Shown one piece after another: positions 8,090-22,610 of a stretch of DNA of 64,000 nucleotides (position 1 is the stretch's first letter; every line of letters starts with the position of its first letter). Both the position numbers and the translations under genes were made by a program. Location of the stretch: NCBI RefSeq assembly GCF_016093295.1, contig NZ_JAEDAL010000002.1:310001-374000 (forward strand), written 5' to 3'. Below the pieces are notes generated by a model. The model was not told the DNA's origin. It worked only from the letters and a program-made list of their open reading frames with translations, and searched no databases. Source of the DNA: Inhella gelatinilytica (lineage in GTDB: Bacteria > Pseudomonadota > Gammaproteobacteria > Burkholderiales > Burkholderiaceae_C).

Positions 8090-8121
8090 GTCTTGCACTG
8101 AACCAGAACTCGATTGCCTCT

Positions 8122-8397
8122 ATGTCCTTCTTCAACGCGCTGTGGCATGTCGCCAATTTCTTGGCGGCACCGCTTTTTGTTGCCCTGATCTTGGTTCTTG
8201 TGGCCAAAGGATTGATGTGGCGCGCGCTATTGGCCCGTGATACCTGGCGCACGCTGTGGTGGCAGAGTGCCCTCGGCGGACTGACTGGCCTGATCGGGGG
8301 CTTGGCGATCTGGTCGGTGGAGGGCAAGCTGGCGGTTTGGGGCGCCATGCTGGCGGGTCACGCCGTGCCCCTGGCATATCGCTTAGTCACGCGGTAA
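8122..8397 (+). CDS. Small inner-membrane protein, unknown function
   Basis: This 91-residue protein has two or three hydrophobic segments (FLAAPLFVALILVLVAKGLMW, ALGGLTGLIGGLAIW, LAVWGAMLAGHAVPLAY) and few charges outside the loops. It resembles small uncharacterised membrane proteins of Burkholderiales, but no family is recognised. It begins 32 bases after the J-domain gene, probably in the same transcript. Its last 15 bases overlap the end of the convergent amidase gene. Confidence 0.6.
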   Translation: MSFFNALWHVANFLAAPLFVALILVLVAKGLMWRALLARDTWRTLWWQSALGGLTGLIGGLAIWSVEGKLAVWGAMLAGHAVPLAYRLVTR

Positions 8398-9978
8398 GCG
8401 GTCGAACCAGGGCAGGGCTTTTTCGAGTTCTGCGCCCAGTTGCAGCAGCAAGCCTTCGCTGCCCGGCGCGCCGTGAAATTGGACGCCCAAAGGCAAGCCC
8501 TCGGCGGTCCAGTGCAAGGGCAGGCTGATGGCGGGCGTGCCAGTGACATTGGCCAGTTGCGTGAAGGGCACATGACGCAGGTTGTCGCGGGCGATCTGGT
8601 CGATGGCGCTGTCGAGCAGACCCAAACGTGCCAGTACACCGAGTAGCCCCGTGGCGCGCAACCCATTGAGCAGCGCCATCTGCAAAGGGGGCGGGTCCCC
8701 CGTGCCATGCGGGACCGGCGGCGAGGCCAGCGTGGGCGTCAGGTACAGGTCGAAGCGGCTGTGGAATCGGCCCAAGGCGCGAGAAAAACCGTTCCATTGC
8801 TCCAACGTGCTCACCAGGGCGGCGGCCGACTGGCAGCGGCCCAAGGTGGCCATGATGCGGGTCAGTGGTTCGAAGTCGCGGCGGCGGGCACCACGGGCCA
8901 CGGCCGTGTCGACGGCTGCCGGAATCAGCGCGAAGTACAGCTGCAAGTAGCTGCGCGCCAAGGCCCCGCCGTCGATGTCAGGGGCCGCTTCGGTGGTCTC
9001 GTGGCCCAGCCGCTGCAGCAACTGGACGGTGCGCTGCACGGCTTCGACCGCTTCGCCGTGCACGGGGGTGCCCAGGGGGGAGGCGGTGCTCCAGCCGATG
9101 CGCAGGCGGCGCAGCGGCTGTTGCAGTTGGTCCAGGAAGGGCAGGCTCGGTGGCGCGATCTGGAAGGGGTCGCCGGGCTCGGGGCCGCTCAGCACGTCCA
9201 GCATGGCGGCGCTGTCGCGAATGCTGCGCGTGATCACGCCCTGGCTGTTGCAACCGAGCCAAACTTCCCCGGCTTGGGGACCCTCGGAAATCCGGCCGCG
9301 CGAAGGGCGCAACCCCACCAAGCCGCAGCACGCCGCCGGAATGCGAATTGAACCGCCGCCATCACCGCCGCCGGCCATCGGGACCACGCCGCTGGCCACG
9401 GCCGCCGCAGCGCCACCGCTGCTGCCTCCGGGCGTGCGGGCGGGGTCCCAGGGGTTGGAGGTGCGTCCGTAACGGGCCGGGTCGGTCACGCCCTTGAGCG
9501 CCAACTCCGGGCTGTTGGTCTTGCCGAAGATCACCAAGCCGGCAGCTTTGCAACGCCGGGTGTAGTGGCTGTCCTCGGCCGCAACCTGGTTGAAGGCCTG
9601 GCTGCCCAGCGTGGTGGGCACACCGGCCACGTCGTGCCCGGCGTCTTTGAGCAAAAACGGCACGCCGGCCAAGGGGCCTTGGAGGCCGGCTTGAATCTGC
9701 GCGCTGGCTTCTTTCTCCAGCCGGCGGGCGACGGGGTTGAGCTTCGGTTGAACAGCCTTGAGGCGGCTGAGGGCGAGGATCAGCAACTCGGTGGCGTTGC
9801 TGCGACCGGCTCGCACCGCATCCGCCAACGCCAGTGCGTCGTGCTGCCGGTAGGTGGGGAAGTCCATCAAGCCGCGTCCGCTTGGAGGCGCCGAGCGTTC
9901 TGGCGTTGCATCCGCATGGGGGTCGGACTCGGTCACCAAAGTGGCCGACCAGTCCGAGGCAGGGGTCGTCGTGTTCAT
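8383..9978 (-). CDS. Amidase signature family hydrolase
   Basis: This is an amidase signature enzyme that hydrolyses a carboxamide; the substrate is unknown. The Ser-cisSer-Lys elements are visible: the lysine in PFLLKDAGHDVAG, the glycine/serine-rich stretch TPGGSSGGAAAAVASG, and GGGDGGGSIRIPAACCG with the nucleophilic serine. At 531 residues it is slightly long because of an N-terminal extension; a second ATG at 9867 (MDFPTYRQHD) would give a more typical 494 residues. The ATG at 9978 sits one base after the stop of a repeat-borne micro-ORF (TGACATG), so initiation by coupling is possible, and neither start has a good Shine-Dalgarno sequence. It is the last gene of the dehydrogenase operon. 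Confidence 0.9.
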   Translation of the reverse strand: MNTTTPASDWSATLVTESDPHADATPERSAPPSGRGLMDFPTYRQHDALALADAVRAGRSNATELLILALSRLKAVQPKLNPVARRLEKEASAQIQAGLQGPLAGVPFLLKDAGHDVAGVPTTLGSQAFNQVAAEDSHYTRRCKAAGLVIFGKTNSPELALKGVTDPARYGRTSNPWDPARTPGGSSGGAAAAVASGVVPMAGGGDGGGSIRIPAACCGLVGLRPSRGRISEGPQAGEVWLGCNSQGVITRSIRDSAAMLDVLSGPEPGDPFQIAPPSLPFLDQLQQPLRRLRIGWSTASPLGTPVHGEAVEAVQRTVQLLQRLGHETTEAAPDIDGGALARSYLQLYFALIPAAVDTAVARGARRRDFEPLTRIMATLGRCQSAAALVSTLEQWNGFSRALGRFHSRFDLYLTPTLASPPVPHGTGDPPPLQMALLNGLRATGLLGVLARLGLLDSAIDQIARDNLRHVPFTQLANVTGTPAISLPLHWTAEGLPLGVQFHGAPGSEGLLLQLGAELEKALPWFDRLPRD

Positions 9979-10142
9979 GTCAGTGGCGCCCGGCCGTCCG
10001 AAGCCACTGAGCGCCCCCCTGGGGGGTGGCGAGCGATAGCGAGACTGGGGGTCGTTTCATGTCAGTGGCGCCCGGCCGTCCGAAGCCACTGAGCGCCCCC
10101 CTGGGGGGTGGCGAGCGATAGCGAGACTGGGGGGCGTTTCAT
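9979..10142 (-). repeat. Two tandem 82-bp repeats, each a 26-residue micro-ORF, between the GMC oxidoreductase and amidase genes
   Basis: Two head-to-tail copies of an 82-bp unit differ at one base, a synonymous CGA/CGC change. On the minus strand each copy is an uninterrupted frame ATG-AAA-CG.. to TGA: 10062-10142 and 9980-10060. The peptide begins MKRPPVSLSL, has QGGAQWL in the middle and ends TAGRH. The chain reads TGA-C-ATG(copy)TGA-C-ATG(copy)TGA-C-ATG, with the first TGA ending the oxidoreductase and the last ATG starting the amidase. Inside each unit CCCCCC and GGGGGG can pair as a hairpin. A related copy lies at 19174-19254. Translation is not proven. Confidence 0.85.
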
Positions 10143-10143
10143 G

Positions 10144-11754
10144 TCATGCCCAGGCTGCCACAGGATGGCCCAGCCGTTCAGCCAAGCCGGTGGCCAGGCG
10201 AGCCACCAGTCCGTAGATGGACAGCTGCGGGTTGGCTCCGATGCTGGTGGGAAACAGGCTGCCGTCGTGAATGCTGAGATTGTTCAGTTGCCAATGCTGT
10301 CCATTGGTTTGGGTCACCCCATGCTCGGGACTTGAAGACAATGCACAGCCTCCCATCACGTGGGCACTCACGATGCGGGTGCTCAGCGGGCGCAGCTCCA
10401 GCGCACCGATCGCCGCTTTCGCGTCGCGCCAGCTTCGGTAGGGCCGGGCGTCCTCGTGAATGGGCTGAACCTCCCGAGCGCCTGCGGCAAACTGAATTTC
10501 TGCCATGGTCAAAAAGGCCCGCCGAATACCGTCTTTCAGCGTCGCCGTGATGGGGTAGTCGAGCGTGGGGCTGCCATCGCGGCGCAGCGTCACGTGACCA
10601 CCCGGACTGTCAGGATGAAAGCCATCGCGCAGCAAGGACAGCAGAACCTGGGTGTGGGGGAACTGCTGCAAAGTCTTCGCTTGTTCCCGACCGAATCCCG
10701 CCATGGTGGTGGCCATGATGACGGGGTACAGGGGCGGGGCTTCGAGCTTGAAGCCCAAAGGGCCATCAATGGCCTCGGTTTCGAGGAAGTGGTCGCTGTA
10801 GACGGTCTGAGGTGCCCCCGACCAGCCTTCGACGCGTTCTTCAAAGGTGGCGGAGCTGATGACCGTTGGGTGCAGGAAGGTGCGGCGCCCCAACCGCTGG
10901 TGCGGGTCGGGGGCGTTGGAGCGCAGCAGCAGCGCTGGCGTGTTGATGGCCCCCCCTGCCAGCACCACGTGGCGCGCCCGCACCACAAAAGCGCCGGGCT
11001 TGGGTGCACTGCTCAGATCGACGGGAACGCAATGAAGGGCCTGCACGGTATGGCCGTCATGGGCCAGTCGCTCCACCCGCGTTTGGACCCAGAGTTCAGC
11101 GCCGGCGTCCAGGGCCCCAGGCAGGGTGGTGACCAGCATGGACTGTTTGGCGTTGGTGGGGCAGCCCATGCCGCAGCTGCCCAGGTTCCAACAGCCGTGC
11201 ACATTGCGACGAATCCGCGGCGCGGCCAGCCCCAGCTTCTGGGCTCCGCGGGCGAGGGCTTGGTTGTTGGCGTTGGGCTCGGCCTCCCAATCTTGGATAT
11301 GGAGTCGCCGCTCGGCCTGTTCGAACCAGGGGGCCATGGTTTGCGCATCCAGGCCTTGCAACCCCAGGCGCTCGCTCCAGTGCTGCAGCGTGGCTGGGGG
11401 CGTGCGGAAGCTGCTCGTCCAATTCACCGTGGTGCTGCCCCCGACGCAGCGCCCCTGCAGGATGGTGATGGCCTTGTCCGCGGTCTTGCGCCCCGCGGAT
11501 TCCTGGTACAGCTGGGGGTAGGCGTCGGCTTCCCGTTGTTTGAAGTCGCGGCTGCTGCGCAGGGGGCCTTCTTCGATGATCAGCACTTTGAGGCCGGCGC
11601 GCGCCAGGATCTCGGCCGTCACACCACCACCGGCGCCGCTGCCCACAATGGCCACGTCCACCGTGGTTTCCGCAGGAGGGGCCTTGAAGTCGCCGCCACG
11701 AACGGGCCAGCCGCGGGCCAGCCCCGCCTGAATGGGATCGGGAATGCTTGTCAT
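10144..11754 (-). CDS. GMC-family FAD-dependent oxidoreductase (alcohol dehydrogenase/oxidase-like)
   Basis: GMC enzymes oxidise alcohols with FAD. This 536-residue protein has the dinucleotide-binding motif near the N-terminus (VAIVGSGAGGGVTAE, then LKVLIIEEG). The GMC signature region is GRCVGGSTTVNW, and the conserved C-terminal part runs VSAHVMGGCAL...SIGANPQLSIYGLV. The open frame goes back to 11853, but the ATG at 11754 follows the upstream stop by 7 bp and leaves a normal N-terminus. A cysteine-containing segment (GCWNLGSCGMGCP) resembles bacterial GMC dehydrogenases that pass electrons to a partner. The preceding genes encode a small Tat-type protein and an aldehyde dehydrogenase, which suggests sequential oxidation of an alcohol to an acid. 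Confidence 0.9.
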   Translation of the reverse strand: MTSIPDPIQAGLARGWPVRGGDFKAPPAETTVDVAIVGSGAGGGVTAEILARAGLKVLIIEEGPLRSSRDFKQREADAYPQLYQESAGRKTADKAITILQGRCVGGSTTVNWTSSFRTPPATLQHWSERLGLQGLDAQTMAPWFEQAERRLHIQDWEAEPNANNQALARGAQKLGLAAPRIRRNVHGCWNLGSCGMGCPTNAKQSMLVTTLPGALDAGAELWVQTRVERLAHDGHTVQALHCVPVDLSSAPKPGAFVVRARHVVLAGGAINTPALLLRSNAPDPHQRLGRRTFLHPTVISSATFEERVEGWSGAPQTVYSDHFLETEAIDGPLGFKLEAPPLYPVIMATTMAGFGREQAKTLQQFPHTQVLLSLLRDGFHPDSPGGHVTLRRDGSPTLDYPITATLKDGIRRAFLTMAEIQFAAGAREVQPIHEDARPYRSWRDAKAAIGALELRPLSTRIVSAHVMGGCALSSSPEHGVTQTNGQHWQLNNLSIHDGSLFPTSIGANPQLSIYGLVARLATGLAERLGHPVAAWA

Positions 11755-11761
11755 GGCGTGA

Positions 11762-12259
11762 TCAGCCCACCGTTCGGGGGCCGGGGTAGCCCAGGGCCGC
11801 CCAGGACTGCGGCTGGGCAAAAAAGGCTGCGCAGTGCAGGTCGCGCAGGGCAAAGTAGACCTGTTGCCGCAGGCCCAAACGGCTGCGACGTAGGCCTTCC
11901 AGTTGCTGTTGTAGGGTCGCCAGGTCCAGCGCTTCTAACGGGCGCCATTGACCCAAAACACCCAATCGACCGGGCGCATTCACGAGCAGGCCCATGAGTT
12001 GCTGCAGCTCGGCCTGAATGGCGGGGGGGAAGGCGGCGAATAGGCTTTCCAGGTGGTCCAGGTGCTGGTTCAGCGCCTCGTCAGTGTGGGGCAAAGAGCC
12101 TTCGAGAACGGCCCGCGCGACCGCCCCCATGGCACGACGGCCCCCGGCGGTGAGGCGTGGGCCCTGTAGGCCCGGCGCCCACAACGCGGCGACGCCCCCC
12201 GCAAGCGCGAGCACGGCAGCTGAACCCAGACCCAGTTGGAGGAGGCGGCGGCGTTGCAT
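11762..12259 (-). CDS. Small Tat-signal protein, possible accessory subunit of the GMC dehydrogenase
   Basis: This 165-residue protein starts MQRRRLLQLGLGSAAVLALAGG, a twin-arginine-like signal (RRRLLQLG), so it may be exported folded. The body is mainly helical, with no visible metal-binding motif. Its size, signal and place beside a GMC gene resemble the small third subunit of gluconate-2-dehydrogenase-type complexes; that is inference. The start ATG overlaps the aldehyde dehydrogenase stop as ATGA, and the GMC gene follows after 7 bp. The open frame upstream of 12259 lies inside the aldehyde dehydrogenase gene and was not used. Confidence 0.7.
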   Translation of the reverse strand: MQRRRLLQLGLGSAAVLALAGGVAALWAPGLQGPRLTAGGRRAMGAVARAVLEGSLPHTDEALNQHLDHLESLFAAFPPAIQAELQQLMGLLVNAPGRLGVLGQWRPLEALDLATLQQQLEGLRRSRLGLRQQVYFALRDLHCAAFFAQPQSWAALGYPGPRTVG

Positions 12260-13674
12260 CAACTGAGCTTTCGCAGCAGGTTCAGGAGACGCGTGAAGCG
12301 GGCCCCATAGGGCGGGTAAAACAGGCGAGTTCCCGCCAAACTCGGGTTGTGGAAGACAGGCTTTTCGCATGAAAAGGTCTTGAATCCCCATTCACCGTGA
12401 TAACTGCCTTGCCCGCTGGCTCCCACGCCACCAAATGGCTGATCTTCTTGACCCAGGTGCCAAATGCAGTCGTTGCTGGTGACTCCTCCGGCGTGGGTTT
12501 CGCGCAAGATGCGCTCACGCAGTGCGTCGTCTTTGCCGAAGATGTAGAGCGCCAGCGGGCGGTCATTGCGCTGCACTTGCGCAATGGCCTCGTCAACGCG
12601 GTCGTAGGGCAGGATGGGTAGCACGGGGCCAAAAATTTCCTCGCGCAGTAGTGCCATGTCTTCGGTGGCACCCAGCACCACCGTCGGGTGCAATTTGCGC
12701 TGAGCCGGGTCCAGCGTTTCGTCGTGGGAACGCAGCAGTTGAGCGCCTTTGTCCTTGGCTTCCTTGAGCAGGCCTTGCAGTCGTGCGTAATGGCGAGGGG
12801 CCACGATGGCGGTGTAGTCTGGGTTCTGCGCCAAGGTGGGGTAGTGGCGCCGCATGGCCGCCAAAACGGCTTGGGCCAAGGGCTCAACCTGATGGCGAGG
12901 TGCCAGAACATAGTCCGGTGCCACACAGGTCTGCCCGGCATTCAGGAGCTTGGCAAAGGCCACACGTTCGGCTGTTTGGCGCAGATCCGCATCCGCCATC
13001 ACCACCACTGGGCTTTTTCCACCCAACTCCAGGGTCACCGGGGTGAGATTGGCGGCGGCGGCCTGGGCGACCAATCGCCCAACCGGGGTCGACCCGGTGA
13101 AGAACAAGTGGTCAAAGGGCAGCTTGGAAAACGCGGCGGCCACGCTGGCATCGCCCAGAACGACCTGGAATTCATCGGCATCAAAGTGCTCGGCCACGGC
13201 CTTGGCCAGTAGCTCCGAGCAGCGGGGGGTCAATTCGCTGGGCTTGAGCAGCACCCGATTGCCCGCCGCCAATGCGGCCACGGCCGGAGCCAGCGCCAGT
13301 TGCATGGGGTAGTTCCAGGGCGAAATGATGCCGACCACGCCCTTGGGCTGGGGCATCAGGCGGTTGTGGCCGGGGAAAAAGTGCAGGGCCGTGGGCATGC
13401 GCCGCACCCGCATCCAGCGCTTGAGGTGGCGCAGGGCATGCTTGATGGAGGCTTCGACCACGAAAACTTCGGTCAGCAAGGTTTCATGCACGCTGCGGTG
13501 ACCAAAGTCTTCGCGGATGGCTTGCGCAAAGGCGTCGCTATGCTGGTGGAGCAAGTCTCGCAGGCGGGTCAGGCGGTCGCGGCGCGCGGAATAGCTGGGA
13601 TAGGGCTCCTGCAAATAGGCCGCACGCAGCTGGTCCAGGCGGGGGCGAAGCGATTCGGAGGGGGAGCTGTCCAT
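12259..13674 (-). CDS. Aldehyde dehydrogenase, coniferyl aldehyde dehydrogenase type
   Basis: This NAD(P)-dependent aldehyde dehydrogenase has 471 residues, the length of the short class-3-like branch that includes coniferyl aldehyde dehydrogenase. It lacks the longer N-terminus of most family members. Visible motifs are the cofactor-binding PWNYPMQLALAP and FFTGSTPVGR, the general base glutamate in VTLELGGKSPVV, and the catalytic cysteine in LNAGQTCVAPDYVL. The C-terminal hydrophobic and basic stretch (LFYPPYGARFTRLLNLLRK) fits membrane association seen in this branch. It is the first gene of the minus-strand operon ending with the amidase. It would oxidise the aldehyde made by the GMC enzyme; the actual substrate cannot be told. 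Confidence 0.9.
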   Translation of the reverse strand: MDSSPSESLRPRLDQLRAAYLQEPYPSYSARRDRLTRLRDLLHQHSDAFAQAIREDFGHRSVHETLLTEVFVVEASIKHALRHLKRWMRVRRMPTALHFFPGHNRLMPQPKGVVGIISPWNYPMQLALAPAVAALAAGNRVLLKPSELTPRCSELLAKAVAEHFDADEFQVVLGDASVAAAFSKLPFDHLFFTGSTPVGRLVAQAAAANLTPVTLELGGKSPVVVMADADLRQTAERVAFAKLLNAGQTCVAPDYVLAPRHQVEPLAQAVLAAMRRHYPTLAQNPDYTAIVAPRHYARLQGLLKEAKDKGAQLLRSHDETLDPAQRKLHPTVVLGATEDMALLREEIFGPVLPILPYDRVDEAIAQVQRNDRPLALYIFGKDDALRERILRETHAGGVTSNDCIWHLGQEDQPFGGVGASGQGSYHGEWGFKTFSCEKPVFHNPSLAGTRLFYPPYGARFTRLLNLLRKLS

Positions 13675-13788
13675 GGGAGGCCAAAAAACTGCAAAGGCGC
13701 AAGGATGGCACGCTAACCGGACCGGCCCCGGACCAGGGAGCGGGCTTGCCCTGGCTTAGAGTCCCACGTCTACAGAGCGGAGGCATGC

Positions 13789-14829
13789 ATGCGGGTTGGC
13801 ATCTTGACAGGGGGCGGGGATTGCCCCGGGCTGAATGCGGTGATTCGGGCGGTCACCTTGGCGCTGTTGCACGCCGACGCGGCCACCGAGGTCTGGGGGA
13901 TTCAGCGCGGCTTCTGGGGCTTGATGGCCGATCGTCTGCAGCCGTTGACGGCGGCCAGCGTGCGCGACTTGCTGGACGAAGGGGGCACGGTGCTGGGGAC
14001 GCACAACCGCGCCGACCCGTTTGCCTGGCAAGGCCACGATGCCTCGGGGCAGGCACTGGATTGCTTGACGCGACACGGGATTGACGCGCTGGTTGTGATC
14101 GGGGGGGATGGGAGCTTGACCATCGGCGACCGGTTTTCCCGCTTGGGGGTTCCGATGGTGGGGGTGCCCAAAACCATTGACAACGACATTGAGCACAACG
14201 AGCGGAGTTTTGGATTCGACTCGGCGGTCGCGGTGGTGGCGGAGGCTTTGACGCGCTTGAAAACCACGGCACAGAGTCATCAGCGCGTGATGGTCCTGGA
14301 GACCATGGGGCGAAATGCGGGGTGGATTGCCTTGGAGGGGGGCTTGGCCGGCGGCGCCGATGCCATCCTGATTCCCGAGCAACCCTTTGATTTGGATCGA
14401 TTGACGGCTCGGTTGCAGGCCCGGGTTCAAGAACAGGGCCACGCACTGGTGTGCGTGGCGGAAGGCGCCACACTCAGCGATGGGACGCAGTTTTGGCAGA
14501 CCGGGAGTGGCGTGGCTCGACTGGGAGGCATCGGTCAGGCACTGACCGATGCGCTGGCGCAGCGCCTGCCGGGAACCGAGGTGCGGGGGACCCTGCTGGG
14601 GCACCTGCAGCGGGGTGGCGCGCCCACGGCGTTTGACCGGGTGCTTTCGACCCGCTTTGGGGTGGCGGCGGCCCAAGCGCTGCGCGATGGCGCTTTCGGC
14701 CACACGATTGCGCTGCAGGGCGACCGCTGTGTACGGGTGCCCCTGAGTGCGGTGTCGGGTCGGCAGCGACGCGTGCCCCTCGATGACCCGCTCAGCGACT
14801 GCGCGCGGGTCCTTGGAGCCTTGGACTGA
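13789..14829 (+). CDS. pfkA: 6-phosphofructokinase
   Basis: The enzyme phosphorylates fructose 6-phosphate to the 1,6-bisphosphate. The 346 residues carry the family motifs: GILTGGGDCPGLNAVIR at the N-terminus, VIGGDGSLT for phosphoryl donor binding, PKTIDNDI with the catalytic aspartate, and ETMGRNAGWIAL for substrate. The two donor-selecting positions are mixed: glycine in GGDGS, as in ATP enzymes, and lysine in PKTIDND, as in pyrophosphate enzymes. Both ATP-using actinobacterial enzymes and other mixed types share that pair, so the donor is unsettled. The ATG at 13789 follows GGAGG by about 5 bp. It is divergent from the aldehyde dehydrogenase operon. Confidence 0.93.
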   Translation: MRVGILTGGGDCPGLNAVIRAVTLALLHADAATEVWGIQRGFWGLMADRLQPLTAASVRDLLDEGGTVLGTHNRADPFAWQGHDASGQALDCLTRHGIDALVVIGGDGSLTIGDRFSRLGVPMVGVPKTIDNDIEHNERSFGFDSAVAVVAEALTRLKTTAQSHQRVMVLETMGRNAGWIALEGGLAGGADAILIPEQPFDLDRLTARLQARVQEQGHALVCVAEGATLSDGTQFWQTGSGVARLGGIGQALTDALAQRLPGTEVRGTLLGHLQRGGAPTAFDRVLSTRFGVAAAQALRDGAFGHTIALQGDRCVRVPLSAVSGRQRRVPLDDPLSDCARVLGALD

Positions 14830-14840
14830 GGGGCGGGGCT

Positions 14841-15359
14841 TTACTCGATGCGGCGCACGGTCAGGCGTTGGGTGACGCCTTCGATGTCCATGTAGAAGCC
14901 GCTCAAAGCCCCCTTCACGATCTTGACTTGCGGCTCGTGCATGGTCAGGTAGTGGCCCGAACTGCCGTCTGTGACTTCCCACAACTGGCCGTTGGCCAGG
15001 CGGAACCGCTGACGGGGTTTCCAACCATCGAACGAGCCCTGAATCCGCGACTGCACCGAACTGGTGTCACCGCCGCGCAGGCCAAAACTCTGCTCGGGGG
15101 ATGGCGTCGCGGTTGCACTGTGGGGGCTGTCGGCCTTGCCGGGTGACTGGGCACCGGTCCGCGCCACGGGGGCGCCCCACTGCCCGGACCCAGCGGGTGG
15201 TCCGGCGATGGCATCAAAGCAAGCCAATCGTTTGGTGGCGTCGGCAATGGCCCGGCAACTGGCCAGTTGGTCGGCCAGAGCGGGGCTTGAAGTGCCCTGG
15301 GCGTGGGCAGAAAGTGCCCCCGCGCTGAGCAGCAGGGCAAAGGTCCGGCGGTGTTTCAT
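14841..15359 (-). CDS. Exported protein of unknown function
   Basis: The 172-residue protein begins with a signal peptide (FALLLSAGALSAHAQG) and so should be periplasmic. After cleavage comes a short motif, CRAIADATKRLACFDAI, which recurs near the N-terminus of several unrelated periplasmic proteins and holds two cysteines that could form a disulfide. A low-complexity spacer follows. The C-terminal part (FRLANGQLWEVTDG, VKIVKGALSGFYMDIEG) resembles a small beta-barrel fold. It is convergent with pfkA, with 11 bp between stops. No function can be assigned. Confidence 0.7.
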   Translation of the reverse strand: MKHRRTFALLLSAGALSAHAQGTSSPALADQLASCRAIADATKRLACFDAIAGPPAGSGQWGAPVARTGAQSPGKADSPHSATATPSPEQSFGLRGGDTSSVQSRIQGSFDGWKPRQRFRLANGQLWEVTDGSSGHYLTMHEPQVKIVKGALSGFYMDIEGVTQRLTVRRIE

Positions 15360-15455
15360 GTCGCAATGGTAGGGGCTTTGTGCCCCGCAAAGTGTTCCGG
15401 ATGGGCCCGTGCGAACCTGCTCGTTGTCAGGAAACGAGGATTCACTGCGGGGGTT

Positions 15456-16178
15456 TCAGTTCACTCGCGTCGGTCGGTGCTGGCGCAGTCCATCCAGACT
15501 CAGCACCCGAACCCCGCCGTACTCCACGCGGATGTGCCCCGCATCTTGAAGGTGCTGCAAGGCAACGTTCACGCGCTGGCGGGAGAGCCCGACCAAGTAC
15601 GCCAGCTCTTGCTGAGTGATGCGCAGCAAACTGCCCACACCTGGGTACAGCTGAGGGTGGAATAAAGCGGCCAGGTTGCGTGCCACGCGGTGGTCGGGAT
15701 CTTGGCTGCGGTCGGTTTCACGCGCCGCAATGAACTGCCCCAGCCGCTCATTGAGCTGATTGAGCACGTACCGGTTGAAGGCAATCGAGTGCCCCAGCAG
15801 GACGTCGAACTGTTCGATGGGGAGGCCCGCCACCACCGAGCGACGCAAGGCCTGAACGTTGTAGCGGTAGCTCTCCCGCTTGAGCAGCGTGCCTTCTCCA
15901 AACCACCCGCCGGGGGGAAGTCCCGCAAAGGTCATGGGCGGGGCGCCGGCCAAATCGTCATTGCTCATCTTGAGCAGGCCATCCACCACCCCAAACCAGT
16001 AAGTTGCCGCTTTGCCGACGCGGCAGATGCGCTCTCCCGGCTCGGCCTGCGCGATGTGAATGTGGGGTGCAACCAAGTCCTGAAGACCGCGCTCCAGCAG
16101 GGGCCACCACGGGATGGCCGTCAACTCGGCAGATTCCGCCGTTCGGGCGCGCTGGCGTAGGGGTTGCAGTTCAGACAT
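15456..16178 (-). CDS. Crp/Fnr-family transcriptional regulator
   Basis: The 240-residue protein has an N-terminal cyclic-nucleotide-binding-like beta roll (GERICRVGKAATYWFGVVDG, GGWFGEGTLL), a long dimerisation helix (FNRYVLNQLNERLGQFI) and a C-terminal winged helix. The recognition helix is QQELAYLVGLSRQRVNVALQ. Only one cysteine is present, so it cannot hold an FNR-type iron-sulfur cluster. The frame is open to 16229; the ATG at 16178 (MSELQPL) is preferred, without a clear ribosome site for either. It is divergent from the acyl-CoA ligase/liv operon, and a Crp-shaped palindrome lies between, so it probably controls that operon. The effector is unknown. Confidence 0.88.
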   Translation of the reverse strand: MSELQPLRQRARTAESAELTAIPWWPLLERGLQDLVAPHIHIAQAEPGERICRVGKAATYWFGVVDGLLKMSNDDLAGAPPMTFAGLPPGGWFGEGTLLKRESYRYNVQALRRSVVAGLPIEQFDVLLGHSIAFNRYVLNQLNERLGQFIAARETDRSQDPDHRVARNLAALFHPQLYPGVGSLLRITQQELAYLVGLSRQRVNVALQHLQDAGHIRVEYGGVRVLSLDGLRQHRPTRVN

Positions 16179-16309
16179 GGTGCGACCAATTGGAATGGGG
16201 ATTGAACGCTGCTGGAGGTTTGCCGGCAAGTTGGGTCAATCCCCGGTGTGCTGCGGCAGGGGCGGTGCCGCGACTTGGGGTTAGTCCTGCCCGGATGAAA
16301 CCCTTGAAA

Positions 16310-16325
16310 TGTCGCCAATACGACA
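16310..16325. promoter_or_regulatory. Candidate operator for the Crp/Fnr-family regulator
   Basis: TGTCG-CCAATA-CGACA is a perfect 5-bp inverted repeat with a 6-bp spacer, 16 bp in all. This is the geometry of the Crp consensus TGTGA-N6-TCACA with one changed base in each arm. It lies in the 218-bp region between the regulator and the ligase/liv operon, 72 bp before the ligase ATG. The rest of that region shows no other recognised element. Confidence 0.5.
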
Positions 16326-16396
16326 ACATGGCGTCAAAGTCATTCGCACAATGCGCCAACCTGTCCACCTGCTGGGCCAGTCAACGGAGTTAGTGC

Positions 16397-18331
16397 ATGG
16401 GAGCTACTTTTCCGCAATTGCTGTTGCACCACGCGGCCACGCGTCCGGCGGCGGCGGCCCTGCGCGAAAAGGATTTGGGCATTTGGCAAACCCTGACCTG
16501 GGCCGAGTTGGCCGCGCTGGTCGGGGCGCTGGCGCATGGTTTTGCGGGGGCTGGCTTGAGTCGGGGCCAGCACCTGGTGGTGGTGGGTGAAAACCGACCG
16601 CGCTTGTATGCCGCGATGTTGGCCGCACAAGCCCTGGGGGCGATACCCGTTCCGCTCTACCAGGATGCGGTGGCTGAGGAGTTTGTCTTCCCCTTGCAGC
16701 TGGCTGAGGTGGGCCACGCGGTGGTGGAGGACCAAGAGCAGTTGGACAAACTGCTGGAGATCCGCCCCCAAGTGCCCGCCCTGCAGCATTTGTGGGTGGA
16801 TGACCCGCGGGGCCTGCGCCACTATCAAGAGCCTGGCCTGGAGATGCTGGATGCTTTGGTGGCACGTGGCGCGGCGGACCATGCCCACCACCCCGAGTGG
16901 TTGAGCGGGCAAGTTGCCCAGACGCGTCCGGATGCTGTGGCCGCGCTATTTTTCACCAGCGGCACCACGGGCAAACCCAAAGGGGTGGTGCACACCCACG
17001 CCAGCTTGCTGGATCGGGCGCAGGTGGGCAAGGCTTTCGATGGGCTGACCGAACACGAGGAAGTCTTGGCCTACTTGCCGCCGGCTTGGATTGGCCAGAA
17101 CATTTTTTCCTTTGCGCAGTGGTTGGCCTGTGGCTATGTGGTCAATTGCCCCGAGTCACCCTCGACGGTGTCCATTGACCTCAAGGAAGTGGGCCCGACG
17201 TACTACTTCGCGCCGCCCCGGGTTTTTGAGGGGCTGCTCACCAGCGTGTCGATTCGCATGGAGGACGCCAGCGCCGCCAAGCGCTGGCTCTATGCCCGCT
17301 GCATGGCCTGGGCCCGTGAGATCGGGCCCCGCCGCATGGCGGGTGAGTCTTTGGGCTGGGTGGATCGCCTTCGCTATCAGGTGGGAGACTGGCTCATTTA
17401 TGGTCCCTTGCGCAACGCCTTGGGACTGAGTCGGGTTCGCGTCGCCTACACGGCGGGCGAAGCCATCGGGCCGGACTTGTTCACGTTTTTCCGTTCCATT
17501 GGGGTCAACCTCAAACAGCTCTATGGCTCAACAGAGACGGCGGTGTTTGTCTGTCTTCAACCCGACCATGAGGTGAGGGCGGATACGGTGGGTGTGCCCA
17601 TCGCCGGGGTCGAATTGAAAGTGGCAGAAGGGGGCGAGATTTGGGTTCGATCCGCCGGTCTGCTGCAGGGGTATTACAAGAATCCCGAGGCGACTGCCGA
17701 GGTGCTGACCCAGGAAGGTTGGTACCGCACAGGGGACGCCGGTTTCCTGGATGCGCATGGGCACCTGAAGATCATCGACCGGGCCAAAGATGTGGGGCGT
17801 TTGGCCACCGGGGCCATGTTCGCCCCGAAGTACATCGAGAACAAGCTGAAGTTCTTCCCGCAAATTAAAGAAGCGGTGGCTTTCGGGGATGGTCGTGATC
17901 AGGTCTGCGTGCTGCTGAACATCGACTTTGAGGCCGTGGGGAACTGGGCGGAGCGTCGCGGGTTGCCGTACGCGGGGTATGTGGATTTGGCGGGTAAGCC
18001 CGAGGTTTTGGCACTGATGCGCGACTGCGTGGAGCAGGTCAACGCCGACTTGGCAACCGATGAACGTCTGGCAGGCTGTCAGGTCGCCCGGTGTTTGGTG
18101 CTGCACAAGGAGTTGGACGCCGATGATGGCGAACTGACCCGCACGCGAAAAGTGCGGCGAGGCTATATCGCCGAAAAATATGCGGTGCTGGTCGATGCGC
18201 TCTATGGCGGCAAGTCCGAGCAGCACATTGAGACCCAGGTTCGGTTCGAAGACGGTCGTGTCGGGTCGGTGGCGGCCACGCTCAAAATTTTGGATACCGC
18301 CACCTATCCCGTGGTCAAGGGGGCAGCATGA
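16397..18331 (+). CDS. AMP-forming acyl-CoA ligase (long-chain fatty acid-CoA ligase family)
   Basis: The enzyme activates a carboxylic acid to its CoA thioester through an acyl-adenylate. The 644-residue length matches the FACS-like branch. The AMP-binding P-loop is FFTSGTTGKPKGVVHTH, the A5 region is QLYGSTETAVF, and the A7/A8 region runs WYRTGDAGFLDAHGHLKIIDR. The start follows CGGAG by about 6 bp. It is the first gene of the operon with livGHMKF and a PaaK-like ligase, which suggests that the transporter imports an organic acid that this enzyme activates. The acid is not identifiable from sequence; aromatic or branched acids are the usual candidates. Confidence 0.92.
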   Translation: MGATFPQLLLHHAATRPAAAALREKDLGIWQTLTWAELAALVGALAHGFAGAGLSRGQHLVVVGENRPRLYAAMLAAQALGAIPVPLYQDAVAEEFVFPLQLAEVGHAVVEDQEQLDKLLEIRPQVPALQHLWVDDPRGLRHYQEPGLEMLDALVARGAADHAHHPEWLSGQVAQTRPDAVAALFFTSGTTGKPKGVVHTHASLLDRAQVGKAFDGLTEHEEVLAYLPPAWIGQNIFSFAQWLACGYVVNCPESPSTVSIDLKEVGPTYYFAPPRVFEGLLTSVSIRMEDASAAKRWLYARCMAWAREIGPRRMAGESLGWVDRLRYQVGDWLIYGPLRNALGLSRVRVAYTAGEAIGPDLFTFFRSIGVNLKQLYGSTETAVFVCLQPDHEVRADTVGVPIAGVELKVAEGGEIWVRSAGLLQGYYKNPEATAEVLTQEGWYRTGDAGFLDAHGHLKIIDRAKDVGRLATGAMFAPKYIENKLKFFPQIKEAVAFGDGRDQVCVLLNIDFEAVGNWAERRGLPYAGYVDLAGKPEVLALMRDCVEQVNADLATDERLAGCQVARCLVLHKELDADDGELTRTRKVRRGYIAEKYAVLVDALYGGKSEQHIETQVRFEDGRVGSVAATLKILDTATYPVVKGAA

Positions 18332-18393
18332 GCACGCCGGGTCGTTCCCAAGTGCGAATCCCGCGGCGCGGGGCGCGGAGGGTAGTCCAATGA
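18328..18393 (+). CDS. Possible 21-residue micro-ORF bridging ligase and livG
   Basis: The frame MSTPGRSQVR...RRVVQ starts with an ATG that overlaps the ligase stop as ATGA and ends with a TGA that overlaps the livG start as ATGA. It therefore fills the whole 58-bp gap with no untranslated base. It is basic (six arginines) and has no recognised family. It could be a translational-coupling linker or simply spacer with a chance frame. It differs in sequence from the MKRPP repeat at the next junction. Confidence 0.35.
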   Translation: MSTPGRSQVRIPRRGARRVVQ

Positions 18394-19172
18394 GCCGGAA
18401 CGTGGGGAACGTCGTTCTGGACGTGAAGGGCATTTCGCTCAGTTTTGGCGGGGTGAAGGCGCTCACCAACATCAGTTTTGATGTCCGCGAAGGTGAAGTG
18501 CGCGCCATCATTGGCCCGAATGGAGCCGGCAAGAGTTCGATGCTGAATTGCATCAATGGCGTGTATCGGCCCCAGCAAGGCGAAATCACGCTGCGGGGCC
18601 AGCATTTCCATGCCATGAATCCGCGCCAAGTCGCGGAGATGGGCATCGCCCGGACCTTCCAAAACCTCGCGCTCTTCAAGGGCATGAGCGTGTTGGACAA
18701 CATCATGACTGGGCGCAATCTGCGCATGAAGACCGGGTTGCTGGCGCAGGCCCTGCACCTCGGGCCGGCTCGACGCGAAGAGTTGGCGCACCGCGAGCGC
18801 GTGGAGCGCATCATCGACTTCCTGGAAATCCAGGCCTGGCGCAAGACCCCCGTGGGTCGTCTGCCCTACGGTCTGCAAAAGCGCGTGGATTTGGGCCGTG
18901 CACTGGCCATGGAGCCGCGCCTGCTGCTGCTGGATGAGCCGATGGCGGGCATGAACCTGGAAGAGAAGCAGGACATGTGCCGCTTCATTCTCGACGTCAA
19001 CGATGAATTTGGGACCACGATCGTGCTGATCGAGCATGACATGGGCGTGGTGATGGACATCTGCGACCGTGTGGTGGTGCTGGACTACGGCAAAAAGATT
19101 GGCGACGGCACGCCAGACGACGTTCGGACGAATCCGGAAGTCATTGCCGCTTACCTGGGGGCAGGGCACTGA
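18390..19172 (+). CDS. livG: Branched-chain amino acid-type ABC transporter, ATP-binding protein LivG
   Basis: One of the two cytoplasmic ATPases of a LIV-type importer. The 260 residues contain Walker A (GPNGAGKSSML), the LivG-typical GIARTFQNLALFKGMSV, a signature-like region LPYGLQKRVDLGRAL in place of the canonical LSGGQ, and Walker B LLLLDEPMAGMN, followed by the H-loop IVLIEHDMGVV. The frame is open to 18180, but MSRNVGNVVLDVKG is the natural start and overlaps the micro-ORF stop. The missing canonical signature is notable, although LPYGxQKR is frequent among LivG proteins. Confidence 0.95.
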   Translation: MSRNVGNVVLDVKGISLSFGGVKALTNISFDVREGEVRAIIGPNGAGKSSMLNCINGVYRPQQGEITLRGQHFHAMNPRQVAEMGIARTFQNLALFKGMSVLDNIMTGRNLRMKTGLLAQALHLGPARREELAHRERVERIIDFLEIQAWRKTPVGRLPYGLQKRVDLGRALAMEPRLLLLDEPMAGMNLEEKQDMCRFILDVNDEFGTTIVLIEHDMGVVMDICDRVVVLDYGKKIGDGTPDDVRTNPEVIAAYLGAGH

Positions 19173-19173
19173 A

Positions 19174-19254
19174 ATGAAACGACCTCCAGCCTCACTTTCG
19201 TTCGTCCCCCACCAAGGGGGCGCTCAGCGGCTTTGGACAGCCAGGCGCCACTGA
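19174..19254 (+). repeat. Third copy of the MKRPP micro-ORF repeat, between livG and livH
   Basis: This 81-base ATG-to-TGA frame encodes 26 residues beginning MKRPPASLSF, with QGGAQRL in the middle and RRH at the end. It aligns without gaps to the two copies at 9980-10142, with 68 of 81 bases identical to the 9980-10060 copy. It follows the livG stop as TGA-A-ATG and precedes livH as TGA-T-ATG, the same one-base spacing as at the other locus. CCCCC and GGGGG arms of the core can pair. Eight of the 13 differences change the residue, so the peptide itself is not strongly conserved. Confidence 0.8.
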
Positions 19255-19255
19255 T

Positions 19256-20185
19256 ATGCAGTTCTTTCTCGAAGCCTTGTTCGGCGGCTTGATGGCCGGC
19301 ATGCTCTATGCGCTGATTGCCCTGGGCTTTGTCCTCATCTTCAAGGCCAGCGGGGTGTTCAATTTCGCGCAAGGCGCCATGGTGCTTTTCGCGGCGCTGG
19401 CCATGGCGCGCTTCAGCGAATGGATTCCGCAGTGGACTGGCTTGCAGAGCCTGCTGATGGTTAACCTGTTGGCGATCTTGGGGGCCTTCGCGTTAATGGT
19501 GGTGATGGCCTGGGTGGTGGAGCGCTACGTGCTGGGAAAACTGGTCAACCAGGAGCCCATCGCGCTGTTGATGGCGACGCTGGGGATTGCCTACTTCATT
19601 GACGGTTTTGGTCAAACGGTGTTCGGCTCGGACATCTACAAGATCGATGTGGGCATGCCCAAGGACCCGATCTTTTTGTTGGAGTCGGTGTTCCCCGGGG
19701 GCGTTTTGATCAGCCAGGAGGACTTGATTGCGGCGGGCATCGCAGCGGCCTTGGTCGCGGGTTTGGCCGCGTTCTTTCAGTACACCGGCACGGGTCGCGC
19801 CCTGCGGGCCGTGGCCGACGACCACCAAGCGGCGCAGTCTATCGGTATCCCGCTGCAGCGCATCTGGGTGATTGTGTGGAGCGTGGCCGGCTTTGTGGCG
19901 CTGGTGGCCGGCATTGTTTGGGGCAGCAAGCTGGGGGTGCAGTTCTCGCTCTCGTTGGTTGCCCTCAAGGCGCTGCCGGTGGTGATCCTCGGCGGGCTGA
20001 CGTCGGTGCCCGGCGCTATCGTGGGCGGGCTGATCATTGGCGTGGGCGAAAAACTGTCCGAGATCTACTTGGGCCCCATGCTGGGCGGCGGCATCGAGAT
20101 TTGGTTTGCCTATGTGCTGGCACTCCTGTTCCTGCTGGTGCGTCCGCAGGGCTTGTTCGGCGAAAAGATCATTGATCGGGTTTGA
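19256..20185 (+). CDS. livH: Branched-chain amino acid-type ABC transporter permease LivH
   Basis: A 309-residue inner-membrane permease with about eight hydrophobic helices. The LivH hallmarks are visible: FLEALFGGLMAGMLYALIALGFVLIFKASGVFNFAQG at the N-terminus and GRALRAVADDHQAAQSIGIP, the cytoplasmic coupling loop. The C-terminal GLTSVPGAIVGGLIIGVGEKL is also typical. It pairs with LivM to form the channel. The ATG sits one base after the stop of the repeat micro-ORF and has only a weak AGG upstream, so translation may depend on coupling. Confidence 0.95.
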   Translation: MQFFLEALFGGLMAGMLYALIALGFVLIFKASGVFNFAQGAMVLFAALAMARFSEWIPQWTGLQSLLMVNLLAILGAFALMVVMAWVVERYVLGKLVNQEPIALLMATLGIAYFIDGFGQTVFGSDIYKIDVGMPKDPIFLLESVFPGGVLISQEDLIAAGIAAALVAGLAAFFQYTGTGRALRAVADDHQAAQSIGIPLQRIWVIVWSVAGFVALVAGIVWGSKLGVQFSLSLVALKALPVVILGGLTSVPGAIVGGLIIGVGEKLSEIYLGPMLGGGIEIWFAYVLALLFLLVRPQGLFGEKIIDRV

Positions 20186-20194
20186 GGGCCTGCC

Positions 20195-21271
20195 ATGCTG
20201 TATCGCGAAAACGGCCAGTTCAAAACCTCCTACGCGGCGGACCAGCAGATGCTGCCGATTCGGCAGGATCGATTCGTCTTGCTGGCCTTCCTGGCCTTCG
20301 CTTTGGTGGGGGTTCCTCTGCTGGCGGATGAATACCTGCTGCGCGCCATCTTGATCCCCTTTCTGATCCTCAGTTTGGCGGCGCTCGGGTTGAACGTGCT
20401 GGTGGGGTATTGCGGCCAGATTAGCCTGGGCTCTGGGGCCTTCATGGCGGTTGGGGCCTATGCGGCTTACAACTTCTTTGCTCGGGTCCCGGAGTTGCCG
20501 CTCCCGCTGTCCTTGGTGCTGGGCGGCCTTTGTGCCACGGTGGTGGGCATGCTCTTTGGCTTGCCCTCGCTGCGGATCAAAGGCCTTTATTTGGCCGTGG
20601 CCACGCTCGCGGCCCAGTTCTTTGCTGACTGGACGTTCTTGCGCATCAAGTGGTTCACGCTGGACTCGAGTTCAGGCTCGGTCAGTGTGGGCGCGCTCAC
20701 GGCGTTTGGGCTGCCGGTGCAAACACCGCAACAAAAATACTGGTTCTGCTTGATCTTGGTGATGCTGTTTGCCTTGGCCACCAAGAACTTGGTGCGCGGG
20801 CACATCGGCCGCAGCTGGATGGCGATGCGGGACATGGACGTCGCGGCCAGTGTGATTGGCATTCGGCCCATTCACGCCAAGTTGTCGGCCTTCGCCGTCA
20901 GTAGCTTCATCATTGGTGTGGCCGGTGCCCTGTGGGGGTTTGTCCACTTGGGGGCGTGGGAGCCCGCTGCCTTCAGCATTGATCGCTCGTTCCAACTGCT
21001 GTTCATGATCATCATCGGCGGCCTGGGGTCCATCCTTGGGGCGTTCTTGGGGGCCGCCTTCATCGTCATCTTGCCCATCGCCCTCAACCAAGGCTTGCCC
21101 TTGCTCGGCGAGTGGGTTGGGCGGCAGGTGGACACCGCGCTCATCAGCCATGTGGAAACCATGGTGTTTGGCGTGCTCATTGTGTTTTTTCTGATCAAGG
21201 AACCCCACGGCTTGGCGCGGCTGTGGGCAACGGCAAAAGAGAAGTTGCGCCTGTGGCCCTTTCCGCATTGA
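20195..21271 (+). CDS. livM: Branched-chain amino acid-type ABC transporter permease LivM
   Basis: A 358-residue integral membrane protein with about ten hydrophobic segments. Typical LivM stretches are LAALGLNVLVGYCGQISLGSGAFMAVGAY, LPSLRIKGLYLAVATLAAQFF and the coupling loop RSWMAMRDMDVAASVIGI, then GGLGSILGAFLGAAFIVILP. It starts 9 bp after livH and forms the heterodimeric channel with it. An aqueous N-terminal extension of about 30 residues (RENGQFKTSYAADQQ) precedes the first helix, as in LivM proteins next to acyl-CoA ligases in related bacteria. Confidence 0.95.
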   Translation: MLYRENGQFKTSYAADQQMLPIRQDRFVLLAFLAFALVGVPLLADEYLLRAILIPFLILSLAALGLNVLVGYCGQISLGSGAFMAVGAYAAYNFFARVPELPLPLSLVLGGLCATVVGMLFGLPSLRIKGLYLAVATLAAQFFADWTFLRIKWFTLDSSSGSVSVGALTAFGLPVQTPQQKYWFCLILVMLFALATKNLVRGHIGRSWMAMRDMDVAASVIGIRPIHAKLSAFAVSSFIIGVAGALWGFVHLGAWEPAAFSIDRSFQLLFMIIIGGLGSILGAFLGAAFIVILPIALNQGLPLLGEWVGRQVDTALISHVETMVFGVLIVFFLIKEPHGLARLWATAKEKLRLWPFPH

Positions 21272-21290
21272 AGCTTCGAAGGAGACATTC

Positions 21291-22610
21291 ATGATGCTCA
21301 AGACCCTGGCCGCCGCTGCGCTGGCCACTTCGCTGTCCCTGGCACAGCTTCCGGCTCAGGCTCAGGCCAAGGAGCAGTTCTTCCCGGTGCTGGTGTACCG
21401 CACGGGCGCCTACGGGCCCAACGGTGCCCCCTGGGCCAACGGGTATTTGGACTACCTGAAACTGATCAATGCCAATGGGGGCATCAACGGCGTCAAGATC
21501 ACCTACGAAGAGTGTGAATTTGGCTACGCCACCGATCGCGGGGTGGAGTGCTACGAGCGCCTGAAGGGTAAAGGGGCCACCGTGTTCCAGCCGCTGTCTA
21601 CCGGCGTGACCTTTGCGCTCACAGAAAAAGCCCCGGTGGACAAAATTCCGCTCATCACTGCCGGCTATGGCCGCAGTGAGAGCCAGGACGGTGGCGTCTT
21701 TACGTGGAATTTCCCACTCATCGGCTCGTACTGGATGGCAGCGGACGTGTTGATCCAACACATTGCCAAGAAAGAGGGCGGGTTTGACAAGCTCAAGGGC
21801 AAGAAATTCACCCTGGTCTACCACGACAGCCCCTACGGCAAAGAGCCCATCCCCATGCTGACTGAGCGCAGCAAGATGCATGGCTTCGATCTGAACCTCA
21901 TTCCGGTGGCCCACCCCGGTGTGGAACAGAAATCCGCCTGGCTGCAAATCCGCCAGAACCGCCCCGACTACCTCCTGCTCTGGGGTTGGGGGGTGATGAA
22001 CACGGCCGCCCTCAAGGAGGCGCAAGCCACCGGCTTCCCGCGCGACAAGATGTTCGGCGTCTGGTGGGCCGGTGCCGAGCCCGATGTGAAGGACGTGGGT
22101 GACGGGGCCAAAGGCTACAACGCGCTGACCATGCAACATGGGGTGCACCCTGATGCCAAGGTGGTGCAAGAGATTCTGAACAAGGTACACGCCAAGGGCC
22201 AAGGCACAGGGCCGAAGGATGAAGTTGGCCAGGTGCTGTACATGCGCGGCCTGATCTCGTCCATGCTGGCCGTGGAGGGGGTGCGACGCGCCCAGGAGCG
22301 CTATGGCAAGGGCAAGGTCATGAGTGGTGAGCAGGTGCGCTGGGGGCTGGAAAACCTCGCCCTGGATCAAAAGAAACTCGATGGTATGGGCTTCGGTGGC
22401 GTGATGCGCCCCGTGTCCACCAGCTGTCAGGACCACATGGGCTCGGCCTGGGCGCGGGTTCACACCTGGGATGGCAAGGCCTGGAAGTTCAGCAGTGACT
22501 GGTTGCAGGCGGATGAGGCCATCCTCAAGCCCATGGTCAAGCAGGCGGCGGACAAATACGCCGCGGAGAAGAAACTGACCCGCCGCACTCCGGCGGAGTG
22601 CCAGAGCTGA
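21291..22610 (+). CDS. ABC transporter substrate-binding protein, LivK/type 1 periplasmic binding protein
   Basis: This 439-residue protein begins with a signal peptide (TLAAAALATSLSLAQLPAQAQA), so it is periplasmic. The remainder is a type 1 periplasmic binding protein: NGYLDYLKLINANGGINGVKI is the conserved first-lobe segment and VYHDSPYGKEPIPML the inter-lobe region. It is longer than E. coli LivK (about 370), and its operon has two acyl-CoA ligases, so the ligand is more probably an organic or aromatic acid than leucine. The ribosome site GAAGGAG lies before the ATG. It follows livM by 19 bp. Confidence 0.92.
   Translation: MMLKTLAAAALATSLSLAQLPAQAQAKEQFFPVLVYRTGAYGPNGAPWANGYLDYLKLINANGGINGVKITYEECEFGYATDRGVECYERLKGKGATVFQPLSTGVTFALTEKAPVDKIPLITAGYGRSESQDGGVFTWNFPLIGSYWMAADVLIQHIAKKEGGFDKLKGKKFTLVYHDSPYGKEPIPMLTERSKMHGFDLNLIPVAHPGVEQKSAWLQIRQNRPDYLLLWGWGVMNTAALKEAQATGFPRDKMFGVWWAGAEPDVKDVGDGAKGYNALTMQHGVHPDAKVVQEILNKVHAKGQGTGPKDEVGQVLYMRGLISSMLAVEGVRRAQERYGKGKVMSGEQVRWGLENLALDQKKLDGMGFGGVMRPVSTSCQDHMGSAWARVHTWDGKAWKFSSDWLQADEAILKPMVKQAADKYAAEKKLTRRTPAECQS

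Follow-up and report, generated by a model that had tools for sequence, protein, structure and literature searches.

A branched-chain amino acid transport operon of Inhella gelatinilytica contains a 26-codon open frame between livG and livH, one base away from each gene. What is this micro-ORF, and why does it fit its junction so exactly? The locus lies in the window (the whole stretch of 64,000 nucleotides analysed here), where livG (18390–19172, + strand; Pfam accessions PF00005 and PF12399) encodes the ABC transporter ATPase and livH (19256–20185, + strand; Pfam accession PF02653) encodes an ABC permease. The element occupies positions 19174–19254 of the + strand, runs from ATG to TGA (26 codons plus stop) with the predicted product MKRPPASLSFVPHQGGAQRLWTARRH, and is delimited by its sequence and its family membership. 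At the left junction (19170–19176, + strand), TGA-A-ATG joins the livG stop codon (19170–19172) to the micro-ORF start through a one-base spacer. At the right junction (19252–19258, + strand), TGA-T-ATG joins the micro-ORF stop codon (19252–19254) to the livH ATG at 19256 in the same way.

Copies of the element

We identified two further copies in the window, both on the − strand. They form a tandem pair (9980–10142) that separates a GMC oxidoreductase gene from an amidase gene (both named by Pfam). The second copy, the downstream member of the pair (9980–10060), is followed by C and the amidase ATG (9976–9978), and the third copy, the upstream member (10062–10142), lies one base (C) past the GMC oxidoreductase stop codon (10144–10146); all three junctions of the pair read TGA-C-ATG. 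The pair has an 82-nt period and its members are 99% identical, which suggests a recent duplication. Tandem arrays of the element also occur in further genomes (for example, L172, L205 and L138).

The livG–livH element is identical to the two other window copies at 68 and 67 of 81 positions, without gaps, and 8 of the 13 and 8 of the 14 differences, respectively, are non-synonymous. BLAST E-values of the window copy against its own genome (5.7e-19 and 1.3e-17) indicate that this likeness is not due to chance. An earlier note on this DNA had described the 81-base element, its coordinates, its one-base junctions, the 68/81 identity and the eight non-synonymous differences out of 13, all of which are borne out by the sequence and by BLAST. 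The note had also counted the livG–livH element as a third copy. This count holds for the window and for the whole genome (3.5 Mb, 23 contigs) searched with the window copy (3 matches at E ≤ 0.001), and fails with the family consensus as query, which finds six places, some of them partial (E ≤ 0.01).

The element belongs to a dispersed repeat family. Of 120 genomes sampled within the host's family, at least 90 match the consensus among the matches listed (E ≤ 1e-6, at most seven candidates scored per genome). With the window copy as query, 47 of 200 genomes of the wider family match (E ≤ 0.001, at most four candidates scored per genome). All six genomes examined in the genus match. Across the class, 3 of 274 genomes match at E ≤ 1e-6 (at most three candidates scored per genome), two of them from the host's family. 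A 90% identical full-length copy (L301) lies in a 78% complete genome from another family of the class (G272) and may reflect horizontal transfer or a misbinned contig.

A scan for a pattern whose last bases are the stop codon, with no constraint on what comes next, recovered 32 copies in 31 stretches of genome contigs, from Inhella, Piscinibacter, Rubrivivax, Ideonella, Aquabacterium, Pelomonas, Aromatoleum and others. Ten plasmid records carry the element, in Variovorax, Paraburkholderia, Acidovorax, Burkholderia and Azoarcus, and a search of phages returned zero matches. Rfam covariance models gave 0 matches at E ≤ 1 in window positions 8000–22000, and we found no description of this repeat in the open-access literature, including by sequence-string search.

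We gathered 202 distinct copies among the matches listed, leaving out 14 listed places without flanks. We then removed 8 copies in which no loop was recognisable and 49 whose terminal stem had a length below 6, which left 145 scored copies from 68 genomes or records (duplicate genome labels merged). Copies were found through similarity to the consensus, so degraded ones are under-sampled, and genes were called heuristically, from an open frame together with GC phase.

Two subfamilies depart from the common form. In a chimeric subfamily (L013, L015, L018 and L217), the right half is kept and the left half is swapped for a different sequence; these copies still end in CACTGA and continue as TGA-N-ATG (L013, L015 and L217) or TGATG (L018). 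A chimeric copy is also present in the window's own genome (G000 C16:243916). A second subfamily (L180, L182, L192, L202 and L207) has the loop GGCTTGGGGCGGCCCGGCGC or a near version of it and, by eye, often lacks the terminal TGA. The latter may represent a non-coupled branch.

Junctions, reading frame and hairpins

Element copies sit immediately before genes. In 95 of 145 copies, the element 3′ end coincides with the start of an open frame 80 codons or longer, compared with 6 of 145 in a mirrored control at the left end on the other strand. Under a stricter gene rule, a co-directional gene begins right at the 3′ end in 89 copies, and no gene start was detected there in the other 56. The right-hand gene is co-directional in 113 copies and opposite in 5, with 27 left unassigned.

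The one-base junction of the livG–livH element is also the commonest in the family. A spacing of +1 (TGA-N-ATG) accounts for 55 of 101 scored right junctions, compared with 5 of 285 ordinary co-directional gene pairs at the same loci, where −4 and −1 are the commonest distances. At the left end, +1 is again the commonest spacing: a choice of ATG by proximity to the C-run, which is blind to spacing, gives 30 of 88, and an alternative rule that takes the ATG nearest +1 where several are possible, and hence favours this class, gives 32 of 88. A −4 spacing is rarer (left end, 15 of 88; right end, 13 of 101). The two spacings of a copy agree in 23 of 57 cases (null 15.6; counted after exclusion of 12 copies that lack a usable frame), chiefly through the +1/+1 class, without which agreement is 4 of 38.

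After the stop codon at which the scanned pattern ends, 20 of the 32 pattern-scan copies continue as N-ATG and 3 read TGATG. We viewed five plasmid records, of which the two with gene tables, at a liv operon and at gnd–zwf, both start the downstream coding sequence one base past the match. When each of the 68 genomes or records contributes one copy, averages are 0.63 for adjacency to a gene start, 0.45 for +1 spacing and 0.81 for an intact frame.

Genes that start at the element end carry no Shine-Dalgarno-like tetramer immediately upstream (0 of 88), compared with 59 of 130, 53 of 130 and 19 of 66 background starts in three spacing classes. The element's own ATG, in contrast, is preceded by a Shine-Dalgarno sequence in 25 of 76 copies. 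These counts suggest that the old binding site now works for the micro-ORF and that the next gene relies on ribosomes that arrive through the element.

The earlier note had proposed that the length, the frame ends and the hairpin, rather than the peptide, are conserved. Length is not fixed as such: the distance from ATG to TGA ranges from 73 to 90 nt and is 78, 81 or 84 in 73 of 99 copies. Segment lengths within the element vary by non-multiples of three, while their sum is usually a multiple of three. Where only one ATG is a candidate (86 copies), the frame is kept in 74, compared with a mean of 32.6 (sd 4.4, maximum 47) over 5000 shuffles of segment lengths, and 0 of 100000 permutations reach 74. 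Counting each length combination once, 33 of 45 are in frame (shuffled 16.0, sd 3.1). The interior is not a multiple of three in 25 copies, 16 of which are compensated on the ATG side.

Frame integrity is associated with gene adjacency. The frame is intact in 95 of the 122 copies with an ATG. Copies beside a downstream gene start have both ATG and frame intact in 71 of 89 cases, and the remaining copies in 24 of 56 (Fisher p 1e-5); among the gene-adjacent copies, the frame is broken in 10 of the 81 with an ATG, and the ATG is missing in 8 more. These comparisons support the proposed conservation of the frame ends. A frame that stays open from −300 to +300 in some reading was found for 10 of 145 copies, which in G+C-rich DNA can be chance.

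Does selection keep the peptide? A conserved functional micropeptide coded in many operons would account for the conserved frame, and the peptides of several copies share the ending ...GGAQWLRAAGRH or a close version of it. Differences are nonetheless spread over the codon positions and not concentrated in the third (665/476/704 in the 78-nt class, and 120/148/144), and in raw counts non-synonymous exceed synonymous differences in both the 78-nt class (1212:633) and the 81-nt class (292:120). Compensating indels also cause the middle to be read in different frames, yielding different peptides of similar length with ATG...TGA kept. The varying middle frame and the spread of differences suggest that the peptide is not what is kept. 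Peptide conservation is thus not supported, in agreement with the earlier note, and we consider a functional micropeptide highly improbable.

The window copy is predicted to fold into two hairpins, the first with a CCCCC/GGGGG stem (19203–19222, + strand) and the second a terminal hairpin (19224–19254, + strand) whose 3′ arm ends with the stop codon TGA. The terminal stem covaries across 109 non-redundant copies, with compensatory changes in the outer stem and in one inner pair. Four successive outer pairs are formed in 85, 96, 107 and 99 of the 109 copies (shuffled 62.5, 50.0, 63.0 and 53.9) and the inner pair in 102 (shuffled 65.4), against a shuffle that ignores kinship among the copies. 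Pairs of the first hairpin are nearly invariant and thus uninformative on covariation. For a sequence of its composition, the window copy has an unremarkable folding energy (z −1.28), which 28 of 200 shuffles equalled or bettered. The case for a conserved hairpin, as the earlier note had it, is one of covariation across copies and not of single-sequence energy.

Empty sites and rival explanations

At one site in the genus, one genome carries the element and another lacks it. The flanking protein ends are 99% identical (DNA 244/270), and the two sites differ by an 83-nt block exactly between TGA and ATG. The block is a clean 83-nt insertion at the empty TGA|ATG, with no longer duplication. Among copies with TGA-N-ATG at both ends, the spacer base is identical on the two sides in 13 of 21 (shuffled mean 6.7), which hints at a target duplication. 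By eye, the element ends do not resemble inverted copies of each other.

For a model in which the element inserts into a pre-existing TGA-N-ATG, the relevant observations are empty-site spacings of −16, −4, −1, 0, 2, 10, 11 and 14, together with empty livG–livH spacings that are mostly 10–24 nt. The empty-site comparison leaves out site s1, and three relatives of site s3 lack an upstream match.

We identified 31 adjacent livG–livH junctions (32 loci, with L241 left out as its livG is not adjacent), of which three, by eye, contain the element: those of the window's own genome, G003 and G122. The three elements belong to different subtypes and, by eye, all are in frame with TGA-N-ATG or TGATG on both sides. 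This is the comparison of junctions with and without the element that the earlier note had called for, and a broken-frame element was seen at none of the three occupied junctions. The 28 junctions without the element have spacings of −1 to 153 nt (10–24 in 20 of 28), and their lack of it implies that the host does not need the element. At the 153-nt junction (L237) lies an insert of another kind, repeat-like and with many CGCGAAGG/CTTCGCG motifs.

Small dispersed palindromic repeats of the REP, REPIN and BIME types, some of which lie near stop codons, resemble the element as characterized in the portions of the literature drawn on here (PMC6006769, PMC12306157, PMC2817692, PMC3733652). The element could accordingly be a REP/REPIN-type palindrome, short, dispersed and G+C-rich, that is mobilised by a RAYT (Y1/TnpA-REP) transposase and has an incidental open frame. 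Nine of 15 carrier genomes tested, including the window's own, have a match to the Y1 transposase (Pfam accession PF01797). The other six (G060, G077, G122, G111, G095 and G102) have no PF01797 match at E ≤ 0.001, and three of these (G060, G077 and G095) are assembled in 1–2 contigs. RAYT transposases are thus seemingly not required, and RAYT mobilisation as a requirement is not supported. The GT[AG]G tag expected at the hairpin foot (reverse strand, beside the stop) is present in 62 of 124 terminal-stop copies and is not a conserved feature. The element further departs from the partial descriptions of REP-type repeats in its conserved frame and start codon, and an incidental frame would not be maintained through compensating indels. 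We consider this origin improbable.

The hairpin might instead act post-transcriptionally at gene junctions, through mRNA stability or attenuation, with the ORF only preventing polarity. The covarying terminal stem and the stop codon inside it speak for such a role. A hairpin alone nevertheless leaves unexplained both the one-base spacing at the two ends and the missing Shine-Dalgarno sequences at 88 downstream starts, and this explanation seems unlikely to us.

A proposed relay between genes

We propose that the element is probably a dispersed, hairpin-bearing repeat, inserted or retained immediately before start codons in runs of co-directional genes, that works as a self-contained termination–reinitiation relay. 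Support from sequence comparison comes from its position, orientation, spacing, frame and covariation, the missing downstream Shine-Dalgarno sequence and the empty site. Ribosomes that finish the upstream gene, or that are recruited by the host gene's old Shine-Dalgarno sequence, would start at the element ATG and translate its approximately 25 codons, thereby opening the terminal hairpin. After terminating at the hairpin TGA, they would resume at the downstream start codon, a single base further on. The window copy has 18 C and 5 G in its first 42 bases. Left untranslated, a C-rich insert of 80 nt would uncouple the genes and lay the RNA open to Rho, which could explain why the frame is kept. 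Reinitiation at the downstream ATG, protection from Rho and the means of movement are what we infer from these patterns.

The most economical view is that the start and stop codons of a mobile or duplicating element render it harmless, and that it is tolerated in operons because translation passes through it. The frame may reflect such tolerance rather than a host benefit, and it is possible that the element sets the livG:livH ratio, a putative role. The structural or coupling role suggested in the earlier note is supported by the frame, hairpin and peptide comparisons, in which the coupling itself remains putative.

The efficiency of such a relay can be gauged from two-reporter measurements in Escherichia coli, as given in the consulted part of one study (PMC10666635). 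Reinitiation fell off sharply with distance: at 38 nt, 80–90% or all of it was lost. The final 15 nt of the upstream gene were enough for it to occur. A 2-nt distance cost 5, 20 and 70% of reinitiation in three gene pairs relative to their native overlaps, and the same part of the study cites a contrary view, in which de novo initiation is the commoner event. By analogy with these losses, and given the contrary view, the +1 spacing may make a lossy relay. The short stop–start distance is common to the element and to ordinary termination–reinitiation coupling as that part of the study presents it (PMC10666635); unlike ordinary coupling, the element is a dispersed repeat between genes and its downstream starts lack a Shine-Dalgarno sequence.

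Other mobile repeats with translatable open frames include the Rickettsia palindromic elements and ERIC-type MITEs. In the section of the source that concerns them (PMC2229807), these frames are fused inside other ORFs, whereas the ORF of the element is separate and has its own start and stop. An exception that comes near their pattern is one copy in Aromatoleum toluclasticum (L062 968–1050, reverse complement), which lies in frame near the N-terminus of a gene and is without its own stop. By eye, the host gene reads like a 2-oxoacid oxidoreductase beta subunit.

The closest system in its working is that of the mycobacterial interspersed repetitive units (MIRUs), reportedly described by Supply et al. 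in 1997. Like the element, MIRUs are short repeats at start codons with a small co-directional ORF, thought to be tolerated through translational coupling. The relevant extract of a 2025 review presents them as apparently mobile repeats whose ORF is coupled at −4 nt and whose insertion sites are start codons (PMC12548453). In an excerpt from a second review, they are said to have no dyad symmetry and to overlap the contiguous ORFs (PMC4473831). On these partial accounts, the −4 overlap of MIRUs contrasts with the commonest +1 spacing on both sides of the element, and their lack of dyad symmetry contrasts with its two predicted hairpins and covarying terminal stem. MIRUs are mycobacterial and the element betaproteobacterial, and the two are compared here by description. 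The element is not called a MIRU because it differs in dyad symmetry, junction and lineage.

A more far-reaching reading, which we hold tentatively and at somewhat less than an even chance, is that a 'coupling cassette' mobile repeat was invented a second time, independently, in a large betaproteobacterial family. Such a cassette would have its own start, a stop inside a hairpin and a favoured one-base junction, and would colonise operon gene starts without polarity through a non-RAYT mechanism that recognises stop–start junctions. It would also be a strict relay, with a downstream start that lacks a Shine-Dalgarno sequence beside a hairpin opened only by a translating ribosome.

If the relay explanation is right, the element shows how a mobile repeat can live between operon genes without silencing them, and the 202 distinct copies among the matches listed would amount to many natural insertions for testing translational coupling. 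Some of the approximately 80-nt G+C-rich repeats between Burkholderiales genes would then be translated, which is relevant to annotators. The idea embodied by MIRUs would no longer be confined to mycobacteria.
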